Assembly (NCBI GenBank): GCA_024516035.1
Contig: CM044962.1
Coordinates: 9,009,595 to 9,073,594 of the forward strand
Source: Bactericera cockerelli
Taxonomy: Eukaryota; Arthropoda; Insecta; Hemiptera; Triozidae
DNA: 64,000 nucleotides
Reading direction: 5' to 3'
Shown here: positions 112 to 57,777 of the stretch, one piece after another
Position numbering within the stretch: the first letter of the stretch is position 1
Layout: every line of letters begins with the position of its first letter
The notes under the pieces: model-generated
The model's database searches: none
What the model was told of the DNA's origin: nothing
The model's input: only the letters and a program-made list of their open reading frames with translations
Translations under genes and position numbers: made by a program

Positions 112-1333
112 TTACCCCCTTCGAGCTTGTATGACAGCCTGCAATCGATTTCTCATGGACTTGATTAGGTTGGCAGCCGTTTCTTGATCGATAGTCTCCC
201 ACTCCTCATAAAGCGCCTGTTTCAGGTCCCTGTGGTTCATTGGGGGCGGGTTTCGAGCATGGACACGTCTTTTAAGCTCGTCCCAGAGGTGTTCAATAAG
301 ATTAAGATCAGGACTGTTGGCTGGCCAGTTGAGGGTTCGAATACCGTATGACAGCCTGCAATCGATTTCTCATGGACTTGATTAGGTTGGCAGCCGTTTC
401 TTGATCGATAGTCTCCCACTCCTCATAAAGCGCCTGTTTCAGGTCCCTGTGGTTCATTGGGGGCGGGTTTCGAGCATGGACACGTCTTTTAAGCTCGTCC
501 CAGAGGTGTTCAATAAGATTAAGATCAGGACTGTTGGTTGGCCAGTTGAGGGTTCGAATACCGGCCTCTTGGAGAAAGTCACTTACAATACGTGCTGTAC
601 GAGGTCGGGCATTGTCTTGCATTAACACGAATCCATCACCCACAAAACCTGCATAAGGGACAACATGATCTTCAATGATGTCAGTGACATACCTCTCTGC
701 AGTTAGGTTACCTCCTTGTCCTCCACAATTGATGATAACGAGCTCTGTTTTAATTTCCATAGAGATTCCACCCCAGAAGATACAAGATCCTAAACCAAAA
801 CTCACAGTTTCTTGAATATAACATTGATTATACCGTTCACCTGGTCTTCTATACACCCTTTTACGTCTGTCATTGAAGAACAAGCAGGGTCGGCTCTCAT
901 CCGTGGACAGAACGTGCCCCCATTCCCCATTTCCTCAATCAGCGTGTTCAAGGGCAAATTGTAAATGACGTTGTCGGTGTTGTCTGTTGAGTTTGGGTCC
1001 CGTAGCTTTTCTTCTTGGTATGAGACCTTTCTTTTTCAAGCGTCTCCTTACTGTCCAAGGGCTGACATCAACACCAGTGGCCATAACAAGCTGCTGTTGG
1101 ACCTCAACACCAGACATGTCTCGATTTCTTAAGCTTGTCATGACAGCAAATCGGTCCTCCTGGGCAGTTGTCTTCTTTGGTCTCTGATCATAGCTACCTG
1201 TCTGCCGATACCTTTGGTAAATTCTGTTCACCTTAGACTTCGACAAATTTAGCTCCTTAGCAACATTTCTTTGCTTAACACCTTGACTCACAAGTAAAAC
1301 CACTTTCACAGCTATGGAGTGCGATGTCTCCAT
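112..1333 (-). mobile_element. Decayed Tc1/mariner (DD34E-type) transposase
   Basis: Reading down from an ATG at 1333, the frame encodes an N-terminal helix-turn-helix region (KVVLLVSQGVKQRNVAKELN and following) and then a DDE core with STDESR, MQDNARPRTA and NSPDLNLIEHLWDELKRR, the classic Tc1 signature. The frame is continuous from 1333 to 308 apart from one in-frame TGA at 935-937, where relatives usually have a Trp (HADW), so it is a point-mutated pseudogene. A 217-bp tandem duplication (129-345 and 346-562) then repeats the region after the second catalytic Asp and changes the C-terminus. The original C-terminal end (AVIQARRG, stop at 112-114) survives in the outer copy. I could not define the element's terminal inverted repeats. 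Confidence 0.93.
129..562. repeat. 217-bp tandem duplication inside the Tc1 transposase
   Basis: The segment starting gtatgacagcctgcaatcg at 129 starts again at 346. The two 217-bp copies are almost identical (for example gttggctgg against gttggttgg), so the duplication is younger than most of the transposon's decay, or arose by slippage or assembly. Confidence 0.9.
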
Positions 1334-1339
1334 GATGAA

Positions 1340-3160
1340 AAGAAAAATTCAACTGAATTTCCTTCCTCATAGTGTTGCATTTAAGGAAATTCAATAATTT
1401 ACTGGCCAAAAAAGCGTTATCACAACAAAAAATCAAATTTAAAATACCCTCGGTGCACGTGTTTTCATCAACAAAATGAGGTGTTTCTGGAAAGTGGCCA
1501 TTATCATTGTTGCATAGTACATAACCCGGACACATTGTGTATTTTCTGAAAGGTATGAGTACAAGCTTTTCAAATATATGCATACTTTAACAACTTCATG
1601 CCACACAAATTGACGAGGACCAACTGAAACGGTGAAATGTCCTGTCCCGAATTTATTGCTCTCAAGTGTATATTGAAAATACCGGGCCAGATTATTTTTA
1701 AGTCCAAAAAAAAATAATAATTTATAAAAGAAAGTAATATAACATAATCTTTTGTATTAGTAATTTCTACCTTGACAAAACACAAAAAAATATTCGACAA
1801 AGAGAGTGATATTTCAAAAAAATCATGCACAATTCAGTTTTTATGTCAATTACTGAAAATAAAATTTAATAAAGAGAGTGATAAATCAAAATTTACGCAA
1901 ATATCACTATATTCCAAGAACTGTACGTCTCGATCCAATGAGCTCTTGGTAACAACTGATCGTAATACCATCTTGTTCCAACCTCCTCCACTTTTTCGAC
2001 ATAATCAATAAACAACACTAGTGCTATCTCGGGAACGGTAAGGGCTAGAATTATAATTCTTATACCAAACGAAAGGTCTCGTTTCGCTTATTTCGATAGA
2101 GTAATAAAAAAAAATTCATGATTTTTGACATATCACCATCTAATTCTGAGGGTGCGGTATATATTAAGTATTAGATGGATGTGAAATTAAGCTTGAAACC
2201 CCCGTCGTGTATGACCATGCAGTTAAAAAACGATCAAACTCAAATAAAACAAACGAACTTGAAAACCATGTCTTACTCTTACGATGTTTGGAGAAAATTG
2301 AACGTATGCTATCCACCAAACAGCTTGAATTTACCTCAACCATTTGACCCAGAATGAGCCAAAAGGCTGGATTGTGCAAGAGGACAGAACTGTAGACAAC
2401 CATTGTGTTAGTGAGACTGACGTGGTGGACTTTCCAACCGTCTGGCTTCTAAAGAATATTTTGCCTTGTTTTTGTACTAATGAGTGACTAATTGGCAAAA
2501 AAGACATTTATCAGTGCTCGATGTAAGAGTAGTTGCTTCTGTGAAACACCTGTTGAAATCTGACGTCATCTAATACCACTGAGATCATATTATAACATAG
2601 AGGGATCCTTACCTATCTCGAGTTGAACAAATTTATGCGTCCAACTTTGAACAGCTGATGGTCCCTCTTTCAACAAATCCCGGCTTCTGATTGGTTCAAT
2701 TTTTTTGAATTTTTTGTTTACCTCATGCAGTGCCGGATATCTAAACATCCTTCATTTTCACGTCAGATATCAAGTCTTATATTACTACATAATAAGTAGA
2801 AAATAAGGAAAGTAAAAGAGGAAACAAAGACAAAAAAAACTAATACGTAAGTATGAAAAAAGTAAAAATATTATTTTAGAAGAATTAGGTAGTTTAACTA
2901 CCCACTCCTTCGCGAGAGAAAAATTACTACAACTCCGGCACTGATTTTGAAATCAGCTGATGGTCCCTCTTGGACGCAAATGTTGATACATCGGGTTCCC
3001 TCTATGTAGTATGTTATATGATCTCAGTGTCTAATACACTCAACAAACACAAACTAGTTCAATACAACTTGCAGAACTATGTTACCTATAGATACATATT
3101 ACATATGTACGTGGAAAGCATTTCTGTTCCTCGGCTCGTTTATTATAATTCATTTTAGTG
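1340..3160. other. Gene-free AT-rich stretch
   Basis: Only short chance ORFs and AT-rich sequence are visible. Around 2020-2110 there is weak similarity (ctcgggaacggtaagggc) to the internal part of the MITE family copied at 6916 and 58252. Confidence 0.5.
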
Positions 3161-10189: not shown

Positions 10190-10258
10190 TGTAATCCGAG
10201 GCGAAGTTAATGCCTTAGGCATTCTCTGCCACTTAACCAGTACAATTGTTCATGTTGT

Positions 10259-10585
10259 ACGCCAGCCTCCGTGGCATAACGGTTGTGACTACTGCCCGTA
10301 GTCTAGAGATCCTGAGTTCGATTTTCGGTTCGAGCAGACTTCTCACACAGAAAATTATTCTGTTCCGTCTGAAACAGTGAGGCTGGCTGGCATTTCCAGC
10401 CCAACCCAGGATGGGTGAGGTTAATGTAGGTAGCTGGTAGGATTTCCACCGAATCGAGGCTAAAACTTCCGTCCTAATTATTTTAAATCAATACGTTAAA
10501 ACCAAATAGAATGTTAGGACATGAAAGGAGCCTAGACATTGGATCTAGACGTCCATTAAATTCGCACACCACCCTGATAAATACA
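10259..10585 (+). mobile_element. tRNA-derived SINE (family C)
   Basis: The head is gccagcctccgtggcataac with B box gagttcgattttcggttcg. The body carries ggcatttccagcccaaccca, ggatgggtgaggttaatgta and aacttccgtcctaatta. The same order is seen at 13947. Confidence 0.8.
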
Positions 10586-12086: not shown

Positions 12087-12751
12087 TTAGTTCTGGGGTG
12101 AATAAATATCAAACCGGTACCGGTTTGACTTGACGCAGTTGACCGTTTTCATTCCGCCCAAACAGGGCGCGTCCAGCGGTCGCTTCACAACGACTCTTTT
12201 CCGCGCCACTTGCAACGCCGTGTGGATAAGGCGCTCATCATTGGCTGCGTCCAGAGGCAGAAGATCCTGCAGGAATTTGATGTTCTTCTTGACTAGTGCG
12301 GAATTTTTCGTTTTGGGAAACATCGGGTCGAGATAGACAACATCGGGAATTATCGGCGACGAGAAACGACCGTCGGGAGCGCTAGTGTCGTGTGAATCGT
12401 GAGAAATGGGGATTTCGCCGTGAGAGGATTTTGCGAACTGTCCGCTAGGTGAGCTAGTTTCGATACAAATTTTACCATCAGAAAGTTTCTCTGAACGCCC
12501 ACCAGGGTCGTTGGCAAGGCTCGAGTTTGCAAGGCTTCGCAGATACGCCCAGCTGTCGCCGAATTCGAACGAAAAGCGTTCGGCAAAAGTCGGGTCCAGC
12601 TCGTTTCGGGCTCGGCGAATTCCGTCGTCCAGTAGACAAGCCACGAGGGGATGTCTCTCGAAGAGCTTTACCTTGCAGCCGTGGACCGCCAGAACGAAGG
12701 CGTCTGTGCCAAAGCCGCCAGTGGCGTCCAGTACGTAGGGGTGGTAGTTGC
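12087..12751 (-). CDS. RsmJ-like 16S rRNA guanine-N2 methyltransferase, last exon
   Basis: This exon encodes the S-adenosylmethionine-binding Rossmann core of an RsmJ/YhiQ-family methyltransferase. In bacteria that enzyme methylates N2 of G1516 in 16S rRNA. Residue numbers below use the three-exon model (312 aa). Visible motifs are VLDATGGFGTDAFVLA (98-113, SAM-binding loop), LFERHPLVACLLDDG (121-135), VVYLDPMFP (229-237), SALVKK (242-247) and KRVVVKRP (276-283), ending RFDIYSPQN and TAA. The 3' splice site is cactttcag, with AG at 12753-12752. Joining it in phase 1 to the exon at 13710 gives VKSNYHPYVLDATGG, which aligns without a gap to bacterial RsmJ. A linker of about 55-60 Ser/Asp/Pro-rich residues (about 168-226) replaces a much shorter bacterial loop. 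GC content is visibly higher than in the flanks. The core looks intact; the host substrate is unknown. Confidence 0.93.
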
Positions 12752-13478
12752 CTGAAAGTGAATTGGGAGTTGGCATTTTTAAGGGAATATGGAGAACTGT
12801 TCATTAACCCTCCAGGGCCTAGCGTGACCATACGGTCACAGCAACGGTCATTTTTGAATCGAGTGTGTGAGGAAACATGTTGTGACAAAATTAAACAATT
12901 TGAATCAGAATTATAGTGTACTTCTCCATCTTTCATAGGAACTCAAAGTTAGTAGCCTAAATTCGAGGAGTCTGTGTGTAACGGCACGGAGTTTGTACAC
13001 AGCCGTTAAATCAGATTAATTTTCCAACCCCAGTTTACCCCAGTCGTGTTCTGAACTTTGGATGAAAAGTACGAGTCAAAAATAATTCAGGCCTTCAAGG
13101 GTTAAGGTTAAGATTTTTAAAATTTTCATTTCTATGTGACAGAATTTGACTATTTTTTTAAAACTCAAATGAAATATTTGTTTGAACCTGTTCAGCATCG
13201 TCCAGCGGGAACTTGGTCACAAATTGGAACCCTCACTTGCACAATGCTGGTAGCTCTTCCACATCTAACGCAGGCTTAGTGAGTTTAACGTGAGTTGCTG
13301 TTTAGTTTCCTGTGAATAGAGGTTCAAACCCCTGTTTCGACTGACCTTTTCGTTAAAGATGTTGTACAACAAGAAGAAACGTCTACAAGTTTATTGTCAA
13401 CTCTCAGAATCGAAACCAGGATCTTGAAAGTTTCCGTGAAAGTGAAGAAAGTGAGGATCTTACTACTGAGACACTTAC
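12752..13478 (-). other. Intron of the rsmJ-like gene (727 bp)
   Basis: The donor is A|GTAAGT at 13478 and the acceptor cactttcag|GC at 12752, phase 1. No TE family seen elsewhere in the window is obvious inside. The reading frame is closed within it, which confirms that splicing is needed. Confidence 0.88.
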
Positions 13479-13710
13479 TTTTGACCCCAACAGCCCTGGC
13501 AATGGCCTCCCCGCCTCCATGATGCCTCCTCCACATGAGTTGTCCACTGGTAAGGTCCACATGGACCCCAGAGTCTCTCTGTCTTGCCTCCAGCACACCT
13601 CCTCTGAATGATAACTCTATGGAGGCGTCAGCATCATGAGTCAGGCCGTACTTCTGGGCTATGGCCAATAGATAGGTGTTGTGCCCGTATTGGTCATGGT
13701 TTAGGAACAC
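13479..13710 (-). CDS. RsmJ-like methyltransferase, middle exon (N-terminal domain)
   Basis: The exon runs from an acceptor ttctaactcattttcag, in phase 0, to a consensus donor GTAAGT (13478). Its 77 codons (model residues 15-91) include LLAIAQKYGLTHDADA, VHVDLTSGQLMWRRHHGGG and EAIARAVGVK. These match, in order and spacing, the small N-terminal domain of bacterial RsmJ (the patterns WGLEHDED, VDFVGG.MAHRRK.GGG and EAVAKAVGIK are known from the family). Finding both RsmJ domains on separate exons that splice in frame makes contamination very unlikely and shows this is a eukaryotic gene of probably bacterial ancestry. The exon has no ATG of its own that fits the alignment start (VFLNHD), so a short upstream coding exon is required. 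Confidence 0.92.
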
Positions 13711-13946
13711 CTGAAAATGAGTTAGAACAGAGAAACATGACACGAAGAAAATTAGTTCAAACCTGCAATAATTTAAAAGTAGATTTTTAAAGGTTTAATT
13801 TTAAAGTGGTCTTAATTTTGTTGATTTTATATTATTATTTTTTTCACACTAAAGAACCGTTTTATTTTGAATTTACTAAAGAAGTCAATTGTTTTATCTG
13901 TGACCAGCTTATAGTATGTAGAATAATTGTAGATATTAGGTAGGTA

Positions 13947-14275
13947 TGCCAGCCTCCGTGGTGTAACGGTTGTGACTAATGCGCCCGTAGTCCAGAGACC
14001 CCGAGTTTGAATGGCGGTTCGAGCAGACTTTTCGAAGAAAATTCTATCCAAACACGGGAGGCTGCCATTCCCGACCCCACCCAGGCTGGGTGAGGTTAAA
14101 GTGGTTAGCTGGTACGATTCCTAGCGAATGTAGGGTAAAACACCCGTCCTGACTATCTCAAATCAGGACGATAAAAACAAATATAGAATCAATGGACATG
14201 AAAGGAGCCAAGAAATCGGATCTGGGCGTTTATATAATCCTCTCACCACCGTGATATAGGTATCTGTAGCTTTTT
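13947..14275 (+). mobile_element. tRNA-derived SINE (family C)
   Basis: Head gccagcctccgtggtgtaac and B-box region gagtttgaatggcggttcga. Body gaccccacccaggctgggtg, gaatgtagggtaaaacaccc. It ends near gtgatataggtatctg and lies in the putative first intron of the rsmJ-like gene, opposite in orientation to the gene. Confidence 0.8.
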
Positions 14276-14279
14276 CACG

Positions 14280-15145
14280 TACACGGAATTATTATTATTA
14301 TTACCTATTATGTATGCACATTGTACCTACATCAATAATGTTTACTTATTTAGGTAGGGACATTGATAAAAAAAATAGACCCTAGGTTTGTCAGAACCAA
14401 CCAACCTCAAGACAAGGTTGACGAATACCGACCTAAGTAGGCTTTGGAAAAGGCTCAAAAGGCAAAGTACAGTACATACTTACATACTTTGAAATCGCTT
14501 CCAGAAACACAATTTTCTATTATCTTCAGGTATAGAAAACAGAGACACGGCAACATTTAGACTGCCAGACAGCCACAAGAAAAGCATTTAGTCCATTTTT
14601 ACTGTTGGTTATTCGCAAAAAAAAAAAAAAAACTGTAGACAAGTAACGTCTGAAAAGATTAGATTACATCAACCGCTGTCGAATTTTAGAGTAACTCTTA
14701 TCATCAGTTTCATAAGAAAAATTCAATTTTGGATAGTTCTTAACTTTTGCCTAGGTTGTTGTCACAAATTTAAAAAAAAAGTATTTAGAAAAATCGACTT
14801 ACTAACGAACGAGATTGAATAATTTCATTTCATAAGTACTTTTTTAATTCAATACTAGATATCTCCCACGTTTCTACTCAAAATACTAAAAATTTAATAA
14901 TGAAGAATTTCACGGCTTATTTTAAACAATTGCTTATTAACATTTTCTTTTTTGCAAACTTCTTCGTCCGAGAGTTGAAATTAAGTCAATTTAAACTGTG
15001 CTGTCTTCAGTGATAAGAAACAAACATTATACAGTCAACTAATACTGGGTCCGTTGTCTTTAATTACTCAGAAGTCCAACAAGGAAATGAGTCTTAGGTG
15101 TTTTTCCTAATCAAACTGCACCAGCAACACTTTTATGTCTTTTGA
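14280..15145. other. Intronic stretch without recognisable features
   Basis: AT-rich sequence with a poly(A) run near 14620. No additional exon with coding character was seen on the minus strand. Confidence 0.4.
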
Positions 15146-15148
15146 GTA

Positions 15149-15362
15149 ATCACCGTAGCAGAGTGAGTTAGCGCACTAGGCATTGCACGCACGGCGACCT
15201 GGGTTCGATCCCCATCGGGGCAGGAATTTTTCTGATCTGTACTTGGATGTTCGGGGTCCACTCATGCCTCGTGAGGAAAGCTGAGTAGTTACTTGTATGA
15301 GTAACGACCTGGGTTCGATCTCACTCTGCCTAGCGCGTTAACTCACTCTGCCACGGTGACTA
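15149..15362 (+). mobile_element. tRNA-derived SINE (family A) plus inverted head fragment
   Basis: A head with caccgtagcagagtgagtta and gacctgggttcgatccccat is followed by body words tgtacttggatgttcggggt and ccactcatgcctcgtgagga. From about 15302 a second head runs in the opposite orientation (tgcctagcgcgttaactcac, gccacggtgac), so two copies meet tail to tail. Confidence 0.75.
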
Positions 15363-16040: not shown

Positions 16041-16072
16041 AAATTAAACTAATATATTGCCCAAAGAAGTAG

Positions 16073-18962: not shown

Positions 18963-19119
18963 TATATGCTAACTAAAGGGCGGGGTTATTGCCTGTGACA
19001 AAGGCCGTATTGGGGGGAGGTCAGGGGTGTCTGGACCCCCCCCCCTCCGAAATCTAAAAAAAAAAATAAAAAAACCTATCAGTATCGACAATCAGTACTT
19101 TTTAATCTCACGGAGATAG

Positions 19120-19335
19120 CCAGCGTCGATGGCGCGTTGAATGCACCGGTTCTCGTTGGATCACCGAAGTTAAGCAACGTCCAGCGAGGTGAAGACTTCG
19201 TGATGCTGGCATTCCGGCCCAACCCAGGCTGGGTGAGGCTAATGTGGGTAGCAGGTTTGTGAGTTTCCTGCGAATGGAGGGTAACACCCCCGTCGTGATA
19301 TGACCATGCAGTTGAAAGCGACGTTAAAAACCAAA
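19120..19335 (+). mobile_element. 5S rRNA-derived SINE (SINE3-type), family D
   Basis: The first about 60 bases (ggcgcgttgaatgcaccggt, tctcgttggatcaccgaagt, taagcaacgtc) match the 5' half of insect 5S rRNA, including the internal promoter (known as ...CTGAATACATCGGTTCTCG...GATCACCGAA.TTAAGCA). The body (cccaacccaggctgggtgag, gtttcctgcgaatggagggt, ccatgcagttgaaagcgacg) is shared with the tRNA-headed family C. It ends in an A-rich tail. Confidence 0.85.
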
Positions 19336-19678
19336 AAAAAATCTCACGGACACGGAATTATTACTATTATCATTTGGAGAAACAGGTGGCGGGTGATCCT
19401 CTTATTTTGTTTCTGACTATAGACAGAGCATAGAGTCTGATATGGAGATAATAGAGAGGACGTTAATGACATAGCGGCATGGATCCGACGGGCTCAAAAT
19501 GGCGGCTAATATTCGCCGAGTCATTGCTTTAGCAGATACATATACAAGGGGCCCCCCGACACCCATCCGAGAAATGTGGGCTCAGTCACGGATCACAGGA
19601 GGATGAGAAGATGGTCGATCCCTCAGCTCAAATACCACTGGGCCGTATTCATTAAGAGAAGAAAAAGCTTTTCCTTGC

Positions 19679-51398: not shown

Positions 51399-51812
51399 CT
51401 AATTATGAATCGACAATCTTATGAAATTGAAGAAACTATATGCGGTACGGACCACTTTCAAGAAGAAAATGCGGCTCACCACCACAGCTCCGCCCAAGAA
51501 TCGGAAATGGTTGTCTTTCTGGACGCGCCTGATCAGAATGCACAAGTCTCTGCGCATGTCACTCGAACACGAGTACCACCGAGAGTTCACGAGCGCCCGT
51601 CGCATGAGTTCGTGACAATCGTCGGATATCTCCGATGCTTGGCAGAGGATGTAGTACTCGCCGGTGACGGCTATCAACTCGGAGATGAACTTGATGTGTC
51701 GGAGTGGGGAGATTTTGACGGGACTCACCACCATTTGGTAGAAACAGAGAGAGATCATGATGTTGTTGGCAACCACGAGGCCGTACACAAGAGGGCTGAG
51801 GAAGGCATTTAA
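51399..51812 (-). CDS. Insect odorant receptor (7tm_6), exon 2
   Basis: The C-terminal 137 residues (291-427) of the receptor. The acceptor tgttctgcttacag joins in phase 0 to the donor at 52244, giving LALKTE|LNAFLSPLVYG, the usual start of the transmembrane segment 5 region. It then carries a hydrophobic segment at about 295-316 and one at about 330-348. The conserved C-terminal region of insect ORs follows: NSRWY (366-370), MRRDLCILIRRVQK (376-389) and the final TAYSFFNFIR (413-422), equivalent to the AYSYF..LR hallmark. The exon ends at TAA, 51399-51401. The receptor would form an odorant-gated channel with Orco in olfactory neurons; the ligand is unknown. Confidence 0.95.
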   Translation of the reverse strand, partial: LNAFLSPLVYGLVVANNIMISLCFYQMVVSPVKISPLRHIKFISELIAVTGEYYILCQASEISDDCHELMRRALVNSRWYSCSSDMRRDLCILIRRVQKDNHFRFLGGAVVVSRIFFLKVVRTAYSFFNFIRLSIHN

Positions 51813-52244
51813 CTGTAAGCAGAACATTTATAGTTTAGAGTATAACAACACCAACTACTAGATAGAAATTTAAAACCTCTTCAGTATAATCAGTATCAGT
51901 ATAAACAGAAAAGTGAGAAGTTGTATTAGATGTACATGAATATCAGAGCATACCTGGACAGCTGTTTCGAGCTTATTTGCTCTCATCAGCAGGCAATAAT
52001 TCTGAATATCCATGCCATCAACTTTTACCTCTCTATTTTAATCATTATAAATAGAAAATCTTTATTGGTTTTGCTTCAAAACTTCGCCAGATTTGATTTT
52101 ATGACTTTCAGTTGGGTATCTCATGTTTAGCAAATGGAAACAAGATCGATTTAAAAAAAATACTTCTCTCCGTTTTACATGAATTTTCTGATGAAATAAT
52201 CTGGGTAAATGATCTTTGTAAATATCAACGTTCTGTGTACAAAC
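51813..52244 (-). other. Odorant receptor intron (432 bp)
   Basis: Donor GAG|GTTTGT (weak, with T at +3 and +4) and acceptor tacag|TTA, phase 0. This position just before the last transmembrane block is common for OR genes. Confidence 0.88.
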
Positions 52245-53114
52245 CTCAGTCTTGAGCGCCAACAGTCTGGTATGGTACTGGATGATCTGGCGCAGAAACT
52301 GTCGCTGATACTCCCTCTCATCCTCCGACCTGAGCCGCTTGCTTACCCCGCCGTACATCTTGACCACATACCGGTTCTCCACAAGGCTCGTGTAGTAGAC
52401 CCGATTTCCCAGCGCGTCCCAGTGTGGTCTTCCTATCCTAGCGACGTGTCGGGCGAGGATCTGGTACTGGCCGCGGATCTGAATGGCGATGATGGTCGAG
52501 AAAATCACAGAGAGACTCGCCCAGAAGAGAAAGAAGACCGTCACGTATGCGACGCATGCGTAGAGAATCTCGTACGTGTAGGATTCCGTTTCGTCGACGA
52601 ACGGAACGCGTAAGCTGAAAGGCAGACTCCTCTCCGGATGTTTCGTACGATACACCTCGTGACGAATCCTCAACTCACTCTCGCTCACTGGCAAGAGTGT
52701 TTCGCCATAAGATCCTGCGAGAGCTGAGAAAACGAGCGCGAAGATGGATGCTAGAACCATGCGACATTGCCGCGCACACTTTTGGGTTACCTCCGGGTAG
52801 GCGTGGCTTAAGAAATACTCCAGACAGTCGTTCATGTAGTTGATGCGACGGTATTCCTTTCGAATGATGAGCACGGCGTACAGCAAATACATCATAATCC
52901 AGTCCTCCAGGAATCGCTGCACGAATTCAGGCCGGTAGCGGATGGCCCGCGTCACCGTGTTGTAGGTGTGACCGAGCGCAAATAATAGATAGATGGTGAT
53001 ATGAATGAACACGTAGACACTTTGGAGCCGATCCTGCCAGACTGTGGGGAAGCGATGGAAGTTGATCATGCCCGCCTTCTGGCACCACAGGCAGAGGAAG
53101 TTGAGAGATACCAT
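52245..53114 (-). CDS. Insect odorant receptor (7tm_6), exon 1
   Basis: This exon encodes residues 1-290. The ATG at 53114 has a good context (cctcgccATGG), and an in-frame TGA lies 15 bases upstream with no acceptor in between, so it is the real start. The N-terminus NFLCLWCQKAGM and the following hydrophobic stretches (about 33-50, 70-86, 118-136 and a long one at 181-213) fit the first four transmembrane helices, with an intracellular N-terminus. The extracellular loop 2 region (137-180) and the long intracellular loop 2 (214-290, rich in Arg/Gln/Tyr) have normal length. The full protein is 427 residues, typical for insect ORs. Only one intron interrupts it, fewer than many ORs have. There is no stop or frameshift, so it is probably functional. 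No second OR lies in the window. Confidence 0.95.
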
Positions 53115-53256
53115 GGCGAGGATGGTTCACCAAGAAGATGAACTTGAACAATCGGGACTTATTATGAACGCATGCACAAACTTCAAATATGAAATCCACT
53201 TCATTCAGAAATACAATAACCTGCATTTACAAAAGTAACCGATAGCAAAACTTGTA

Positions 53257-55620: not shown

Positions 55621-55682
55621 CATCTTCTCTTGCTTCTCATGTTTTCCTCCTTTCTCTTTGTTCCTCCTTCTCCTTCTACTTC

Positions 55683-57777
55683 TCCTATCTTCTCCTCCTC
55701 CAATTGCTTTGCCTTGTAATTCCTCTTGCTTCTCCTTCTGATATCTCTTTCTCTTTTCCCCTTCTTTCTCCTGCTTTGCTCATGCTTCCAATCCCTGTTA
55801 TGCCTCCTTTCTCTTTGTTCCTCCTTCTCCTTCTACTTCTCCTATCTTCTCCTCCTTCAAATGTCTTGCCTCGTTATTCCTCTTGCTTCTCCTTCTGATA
55901 TCTCTTTCTCCTTTTCCCCTCCTTCTCCTAATTCTCCCCATGCTCCCAATCCCTGTTATGCCTCCTTCCTGTTTTACTTCTCCATCGCCTTCCACTTCTC
56001 CTATCTTCTCCTCCTTCAAATGTCTTGCCTTGTAATTCCTCTTGCTTCTCCTTCTGATATCTCTTTCTCCTTTTCCCTTCCTTCTTCTAATTCTCCTCAT
56101 GCTCTCAATCCCTGTTATGCCTCCTTTCTCTTTGTTCCTCCATCTCCTTCCACATCTGCTACCTTCTCCTCCCCCAAATGTCTTGCCTCGTTATTCCTCT
56201 TGCTTCTCCTTCTGGTCTCTCTTTCTCCATTTCCCCTCGTTCTCCTAATATTCCTCATGCTCTCAATCCCTGTTATGCTTCCTTCCTCTTTGTTCCTCCT
56301 TCTCCTTCTACTTCTCCTATCTTCTCCTCCTTCAAATGTCTTGCCTCGTTATTCCTCTTTCTTCTCCTTCTGATCTCTCTTTCTCCTTTTCTCTTCCTTC
56401 TTCTACCTTGCCCATGCTTCCAATCCCTGTTATACCTCCTTTCTCTTTGTTCCTCCATCTCCTTCCACATCTGCTACCTTCTCCTCCCCCAAATGTCTTG
56501 CCTCGTTATTCCTCTTGCTTCTCCTTCTGATCCTTATTTCTCCCTTTTCCTTCCTTCTCCTGCCTTGGTCATGCTTCCAATCCCTGTTATGCCTCCTTTC
56601 TCTTTGTTCCTCCATCTCCTTCTACTTCTGCTACCTTCTCCTCCTTCAAATGTCTTGCCTCGTTATTCCTCTTGCTTTTCCTTCTGATATCTCTTTCTCC
56701 TTTTCCCCTCCTTCTCCTAATTCTCCTCATACTCCCAATCCCTGTTATGCCTCCATCCTTTTTGTTCCTCCATCTTCTACCTTCTCTTCCTTCAAATGTC
56801 TTGCCTCGTTATTCCTCTTGCTTCTCCTTCTGATATCTCTTTCTCCTTTTCCCTTCCATCTCCTAATTCTCCTCAATGCTCCAATCCCTGTTATGCCTCT
56901 TTCCTTTTTGTTCCTCCTTCTCCTTCCACTTCTCCTACCTTCTCCTCCTCCAAAGGCCTTGCCTCGTTATTCCTCTTGCTTCTCCTTCTGATCTCTCTTT
57001 CTCCATTTCCCCTCGTTCTCCTAATATTCCTCATGCTCTCAATCCCTGTTATGCTTCCTTCCTCTTTGTTCCTCCTTCTCCTTCTACTTCTCCTATCTTC
57101 TCCTCCTTCAAATGTCTTGCCTCGTTATTCCTCTTGCTTCTCCTTCTGATCTCTCTTTCTCCATTTCCCCTCGTTCTCCTAATATTCCTCATGCTCTCAA
57201 TCCCTGTTATGCTTCCTTCCTCTTTGTTCCTCCTTCTCCTTCTACTTCTCCTATCTTCTCCTCCTTCAAATGTCTTGCCTCGTTATTCCTCTTTCTTCTC
57301 CTTCTGATCTCTCTTTCTCCTTTTCTCTTCCTTCTTCTACCTTGCCCATGCTTCCAATCCCTGTTATGCTTCCTTCCTCTTTGTTCCTCCTTCTCCTTCT
57401 ACTTCTCCTATCTTCTCCTCCTTCAAATGTCTTGCCTCGTTATTCCTCTTTCTTCTCCTTCTGATCTCTCTTTCTCCTTTTCTCTTCCTTCTTCTACCTT
57501 GCCCATGCTCTCAATCCCTGTTATGCTTCCTTCCTCTTTGTTCCTCCTTCTCCTTCTACTTCTCCTATCTTCTCCTCCTTCAAATGTCTTGCCTCGTTAT
57601 TCCTCTTGCTTCTCCTTCTGATCACTCTTTCTCTTTTTCCCTTCCTTCTCCTAATCCTCCTCATGCTCCCAATCCCTGTTATGCCTCCTTCCTTTCTATT
57701 CCTCCTTCTGCTTCCACTTCTCCTACCTTCTCCTCCTTCGAATGTCTTGCCTTGTCATTCCAAGTCTCTCACTAACA
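55683..57777. repeat. 158-bp polypyrimidine satellite, about 13 copies
   Basis: The unit word atgtcttgcctcgttattcc recurs at 55861, 56019, 56178, 56336, 56493, 56652, 56796, (56954), 57112, 57270, 57428, 57584 and 57742, with spacing mostly 156-159 and one unit of 144 bases. The plus strand is almost entirely pyrimidine, broken by conserved words such as caatccctgttatg and tctgatctct. Since 158 is not divisible by 3, long Leu/Ser/Pro ORFs cross it in all three frames. These are not genes. Confidence 0.96.

Follow-up and report, generated by a model that had tools for sequence, protein, structure and literature searches.

A psyllid RSMJ gene of bacterial origin in Bactericera cockerelli, with a probable upstream exon encoding a hydrophobic leader

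RSMJ has been reported among the horizontally transferred genes of psyllids and was placed there among gammaproteobacterial methyltransferases (PMC10558732). The same source gives its up-regulation in the bacteriome as a logFC of 11.70 in Bactericera cockerelli and 5.87 in Diaphorina citri, and in 2023 its authors called the precise role of RSMJ uncertain. The gene is also recorded in Dyspersa apicalis, D. pallida, and Trioza urticae (PMC12203342), and its first description, in Pachypsylla venusta, is credited to Sloan et al. 2014 (PMC12203342), a work that is credited in PMC10558732 as well. Our search of the accessible literature for psyllid, Carsonella and rsmJ together, or for a psyllid rRNA methyltransferase, gave nothing beyond these two papers. 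In the accessible text of PMC10558732 and PMC12203342, the words 'signal peptide' and 'leader' have 0 occurrences. A precedent for the delivery of a host-encoded bacterial protein is aphid RlpA4, the product of a transferred gene with a 23-residue signal peptide, which was found inside Buchnera (PMC12176269).

We analysed a 64,000-nucleotide stretch of the B. cockerelli genome (GCA_024516035.1, contig CM044962.1, positions 9,009,595 to 9,073,594 of the forward strand), hereafter the window. A preliminary description of the locus knew of no standard animal gene of this family and held that a functional RsmJ in an insect would be new biology. This novelty is overtaken by the psyllid RSMJ already in print (PMC10558732, PMC12203342, as far as their accessible text goes), and the gene itself is a known psyllid transferred gene, not a discovery.

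Gene structure and family membership

Two exons on the minus strand, at 13710-13479 and 12751-12087, encode an RsmJ/PF04445 methyltransferase. Splicing from 13479 to 12751 excises 727 bp (GTAAGTGTC...CACTTTCAG) with GT/AG ends in phase 1, and the resulting frame has 298 open codons with the stop at 12087-12089. At the junction, GVK-S-NYHPYV, no gap is needed to align the product with bacterial proteins. The coordinates and motifs of the preliminary description were exact on these points, and the gap-free bacterial alignment that it described after removal of the intron was borne out. Its two-exon account was right for both exons but incomplete, as the second of them reaches the C-terminus and an upstream exon likely lies at 14556-14488 (Table 1).

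Table 1. Features of the RSMJ gene and its candidate parts, in window positions
Feature	Positions	Strand	Description
Probable exon 1	14488..14556	(-)	Hydrophobic leader MLPCLCFLYLKIIENCVSGSDFK; in-frame stop immediately before it; donor AAA|GTATGT in phase 0
Possible alternative donor, intron 1	14482..14483	(-)	GTAT|GTAAGT, four bases downstream of main donor; phase 1; can join exon 3 directly
Probable intron 1	13711..14487	(-)	777 bp, GTATGTAAGT...CTCATTTTCAG; contains a SINE at about 13944-14256
Exon 2	13479..13710	(-)	N-terminal part of RsmJ, VFLNHDQYG...GVK, and first base of a codon
Intron 2	12752..13478	(-)	727 bp, GTAAGT...TTTCAG, phase 1
Exon 3	12087..12751	(-)	SAM-binding and catalytic part to stop, NYHPYVLDATGGFGTDAF...YLDPMFP...KRVVVKRP...YRFDIYSPQN*
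Possible poly-A signal AATAAA	11946..11951	(-)	Sole AATAAA/ATTAAA hexamer in the 386 bases 3' of the stop; weak evidence

The spliced 298-residue protein matched PF04445 at 7.2e-62 with 209.2 bits, well over the gathering score of 26, and each exon matched the family separately (4.3e-49 and 6.2e-07). The E. coli-type YhiQ/RsmJ chain 2pkw_A was matched at 5.8e-45, in two stretches. Against the RsmJ equivalog NF008012 of NCBIfam, the window protein scored 194.3 bits, below the curated cut-off of 422. That cut-off is reached by P0006 and missed by P0003 (D. citri), P0004 (Cyamophila), P0058, and P0097. We consider the cut-off strict, because it is missed by these psyllid proteins and also by two of three bacterial proteins that we scored (391.2 and 251.8 bits). 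With this shortfall, functional equivalence to RsmJ is not certified.

The D/A/T/G/G residues of motif I and the DPM-P and KR motifs are invariant in the 8 proteins of alignment A1, and most of these residues are also invariant across the 30 proteins of alignment A2. Before YLDPMFP, exon 3 encodes a low-complexity insert of 45-50 residues (about 12270-12510). This insert has its greatest length in the window protein; it is shorter in D. citri, barely present in Cyamophila and Cacopsylla, and missing from the four bacterial rows of A1. Taking family scores and motifs together with the relatives described below, the gene is almost certainly the psyllid RSMJ gene, and its product is probably a catalyst acting on an rRNA guanine.

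Upstream of exon 2 by 777 bp, a stop is followed immediately by an ATG that begins MLPCLCFLYLKIIENCVSGSDFK, and this frame ends at AAA|GTATGTAAGT in a phase matching exon 2, so that a three-exon model comprises 321 residues. In the proteins of D. citri, Cyamophila, and Cacopsylla, 31-35 residues precede the position equivalent to residue 3 of bacterial RsmJ, and these leaders have a hydrophobic stretch and a net charge of 0 or +1. The candidate at 14556-14488 was picked after the fact: it surfaced only once the filter asked for a phase-0 donor following K, N or R. A strict scan (13712-35000; hydropathy > 1.8, donor score > 3) gave no candidate, a looser one (13712-64000) gave 15 rows among which 14556-14488 is absent, and tblastn with the leaders of the three relatives did not match this stretch; the donor-score matrix for these scans was entered by hand. 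As a control, the whole window was searched on both strands for runs from an ATG to a phase-0 donor with GTRNGT. This gave 27 candidates, 3 of which end in K, one of these three reading exon 2 itself out of frame, and 7 of the 27 reach a hydropathy of 1.8. The hydrophobicity of the leader is not unusual and counts for little by itself, 64 of the 612 open ATG 23-mers in the window reaching it.

Support for exon 1 that played no part in finding it comes from the tandem donor. The Cacopsylla protein P0005 is without exactly the stretch of exon 2 and has the junction STKV-C-NYHPYV. When the second donor of the window is joined to exon 3, the product is in frame and reads FKV-C-NYHPYV, in which KVCNYHPYV equals the junction of P0005. 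The UniProt proteins of this Cacopsylla species presumably derive from transcripts. This fit suggests that the two introns lie at the same positions in Cacopsylla. We consider exon 1 at 14556-14488, and with it the three-exon model, probable.

Relatives and origin

A protein search gave 634 matches, of which 120 were listed. The three best were psyllid proteins, from D. citri (P0003; 57% identity over 100% of the query), Cyamophila willieti (P0004; 49% over 94%), and Cacopsylla melanoneura (P0005; 52% over 74%). Bacterial proteins came next, with up to about 40% identity over most of the query among the 120 listed. Besides these three psyllids, no eukaryote was found among the organism-named matches in the 120 listed of 634. 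A profile search with alignment A1 was drawn to bacteria and gave no further insect protein among 120 listed of 7999, and no psyllid-type relative was confirmed in viral contigs.

The psyllid rows formed one clade among Gammaproteobacteria in all three trees that we built, with support 100 every time, the support values being those of the tree program's own tables. The trees contained 89 rows (4 psyllid), 85 rows (3 psyllid), and 79 of the 89 rows (2 psyllid). The 85-row tree omits L044, L058, Psy_Cacopsylla, and P0006; the 79-row tree omits these four and also Psy_Cyamophila, P0007, P0009, L068, L077, and L059. In the 89-row and 85-row trees the stem branch of the psyllids is long, at 2.25 to 2.87 changes per column, and the window sequence branches first among the psyllid rows. 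The psyllids joined two proteins of Candidatus Erwinia haradaeae in the 85-row tree, a placement that we rejected as a long-branch join on the program's warning. With these two and other long rows omitted (79-row tree), the psyllids came to lie next to Enterobacteriaceae, and starred support was limited to the psyllid pair. The bacterial sample was the best 80 of at least 562 confirmed stretches, picked by likeness to the query, and because of this choice a donor within Gammaproteobacteria cannot be named.

These results bear on the two origins offered by the preliminary description. Bacterium-to-insect transfer followed by intron gain is supported by the psyllid clade among Gammaproteobacteria and by the introns; the relatives in related insects and the tree with bacterial RsmJ that it proposed as checks are now in hand, the former as the three best matches and the latter with the clade at support 100. 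An overlooked, patchily retained eukaryotic gene found no support, the three psyllids being the sole organism-named eukaryotes in the 120 matches listed out of 634.

The introns, together with the open reading frames (ORFs) of odorant-receptor and Tc1/mariner type, mark the window as an insect-type nuclear region. Odorant-receptor exons lie at 51402-53126 (-) (PF02949 7tm_6, 3.1e-11 and 1.5e-08), with 3 protein matches at 43-48% identity. ORFs of Tc1/mariner-type transposases (PF13358, PF01498) lie at 311-1348 (-) and 129-563, and a 217-bp tandem duplication (99% matches) overlaps their 3' part. SINE-like repeats are found at 13944-14256, 10257-10579, and 19119-19370, two of them tRNA-like and the third 5S rRNA-like at the head (Rfam RF00001, 53.4 bits). 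All three share a tail and a middle section around CCCAACCCAGGCTGGGTGAGG, and one genome thereby holds 5S-headed and tRNA-headed SINE families with a common body. The window also contains a pyrimidine-rich tandem array at 55646-57761 (158-bp unit, about 13.5 copies, 472-bp higher-order period) and a repeat at 15142-15300, which has copies that are 78-88% alike at 16068, 24472, 38349, and other places in the window.

Proposed function and alternative explanations

The best overall explanation, to which we give a probability of roughly 0.8, is a bacterial rsmJ acquired by psyllids, furnished with a secretory leader, and serving the methylation of helix 45 in the symbiont. The symbiont Carsonella is housed in an organ, the bacteriome. 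A bacterial rsmJ was acquired by a psyllid ancestor and is now a nuclear gene with introns, whose product is a predicted SAM-dependent RNA guanine-N2 methyltransferase. A hydrophobic N-terminal leader would have been gained ahead of the original bacterial start codon and may route the protein via the secretory path towards the symbiont. There, RSMJ would methylate the guanine of helix 45 that is the counterpart of G1516 in E. coli 16S rRNA. Whether the target is Carsonella 16S we consider an even question. A more specific proposal, which we regard as doubtful, is that the exon-1 leader sends a host-encoded rRNA methyltransferase into the symbiont and that a conserved tandem donor, GTAT|GTAAGT, yields both the full enzyme and an in-frame short form that is without the N-terminal part. 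If this is true, the host would control a modification in the decoding region of symbiont ribosomes.

The gene could be foreign to the insect altogether, as bacterial contamination or an assembly chimera, and the GC content of the exons (0.54 vs 0.37 for the window) would agree with this. However, the locus has spliceosomal introns, the ten ORFs scanned include no bacterial neighbours, odorant-receptor and Tc1/mariner-type genes lie in the same window, and the nearest relatives are psyllid and not bacterial. Chimerism is unlikely because the orthologues of other psyllids have the same gene body and because the window also contains insect-type genes and transposons; we consider an artefact of either kind practically negligible. 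The copy could also be decayed or pseudogenised. Against decay, the frame is open through both exons, the splice sites are canonical, the motifs are invariant, and the C-terminus is conserved, in line with the "apparently intact" gene of the preliminary description. In a rough, one-rate neutral simulation, stop-free frames survived in 0 of 300 runs at 44% amino-acid identity and in 1 of 300 at 64%. The real pair is open at 57% identity, so the open frame points to selection, and we judge a pseudogene very improbable.

Two further explanations accept the same gene and differ in its use. The main rival is that the target is mitochondrial 12S rRNA, which has a helix 45 similar to that of bacteria. 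Every host cell has mitochondrial ribosomes, and these are of bacterial type, which favours this target; leaders for mitochondrial import are expected to be basic. The psyllid leaders, in contrast, are hydrophobic with a net charge of 0 or +1, and published expression is concentrated in bacteriomes (PMC10558732). On this balance a mitochondrial target seems unlikely. The enzyme may instead have changed its substrate or taken on a secreted or regulatory role, for example via a short form that skips exon 2 and is without the N-terminal part. The Cacopsylla protein that lacks the exon-2 stretch, the in-frame FKVCNYHPYV given by the second donor of the window, the low-complexity insert, and the long psyllid stem branch are all consistent with such a change. 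However, the catalytic motifs are retained, and the single short protein on record may represent a rare or aberrant transcript. Accordingly, we give an altered role a low probability and prefer methylation of the symbiont's helix 45.

The window gene bears out a case, already in print, in which an animal has put bacterial DNA to use. What merits follow-up is the leader and the tandem donor; together with the exon map and the possible short form, they lead to concrete tests of the location of the protein and of m2G in Carsonella 16S. If this m2G is host-made, it would represent a step from symbiont towards organelle.

Comparison with known systems

Aphid RlpA4 is a works-like precedent only. 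There too, a gene of bacterial origin is encoded by the host, has a short hydrophobic leader, and is expressed in bacteriocytes (PMC12176269), but the protein is unrelated to RSMJ, and entry of psyllid RSMJ into the symbiont is a proposal. With bacterial RsmJ/YhiQ (E. coli; PDB 2pkw, 2pgx, 2oyr), the window protein has the domain, the motifs, and the C-terminus in common, whereas the window gene differs by its introns, its probable N-terminal leader, its insert, and a score below the NCBIfam equivalog. The closest system is the psyllid RSMJ described from Pachypsylla venusta, Diaphorina citri, Bactericera cockerelli, Dyspersa, and Trioza. The window gene belongs to the same family and the same tree clade, and its protein is 57% identical to that of D. 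citri over the whole query. It differs in that the low-complexity insert before YLDPMFP is longer in the window copy.
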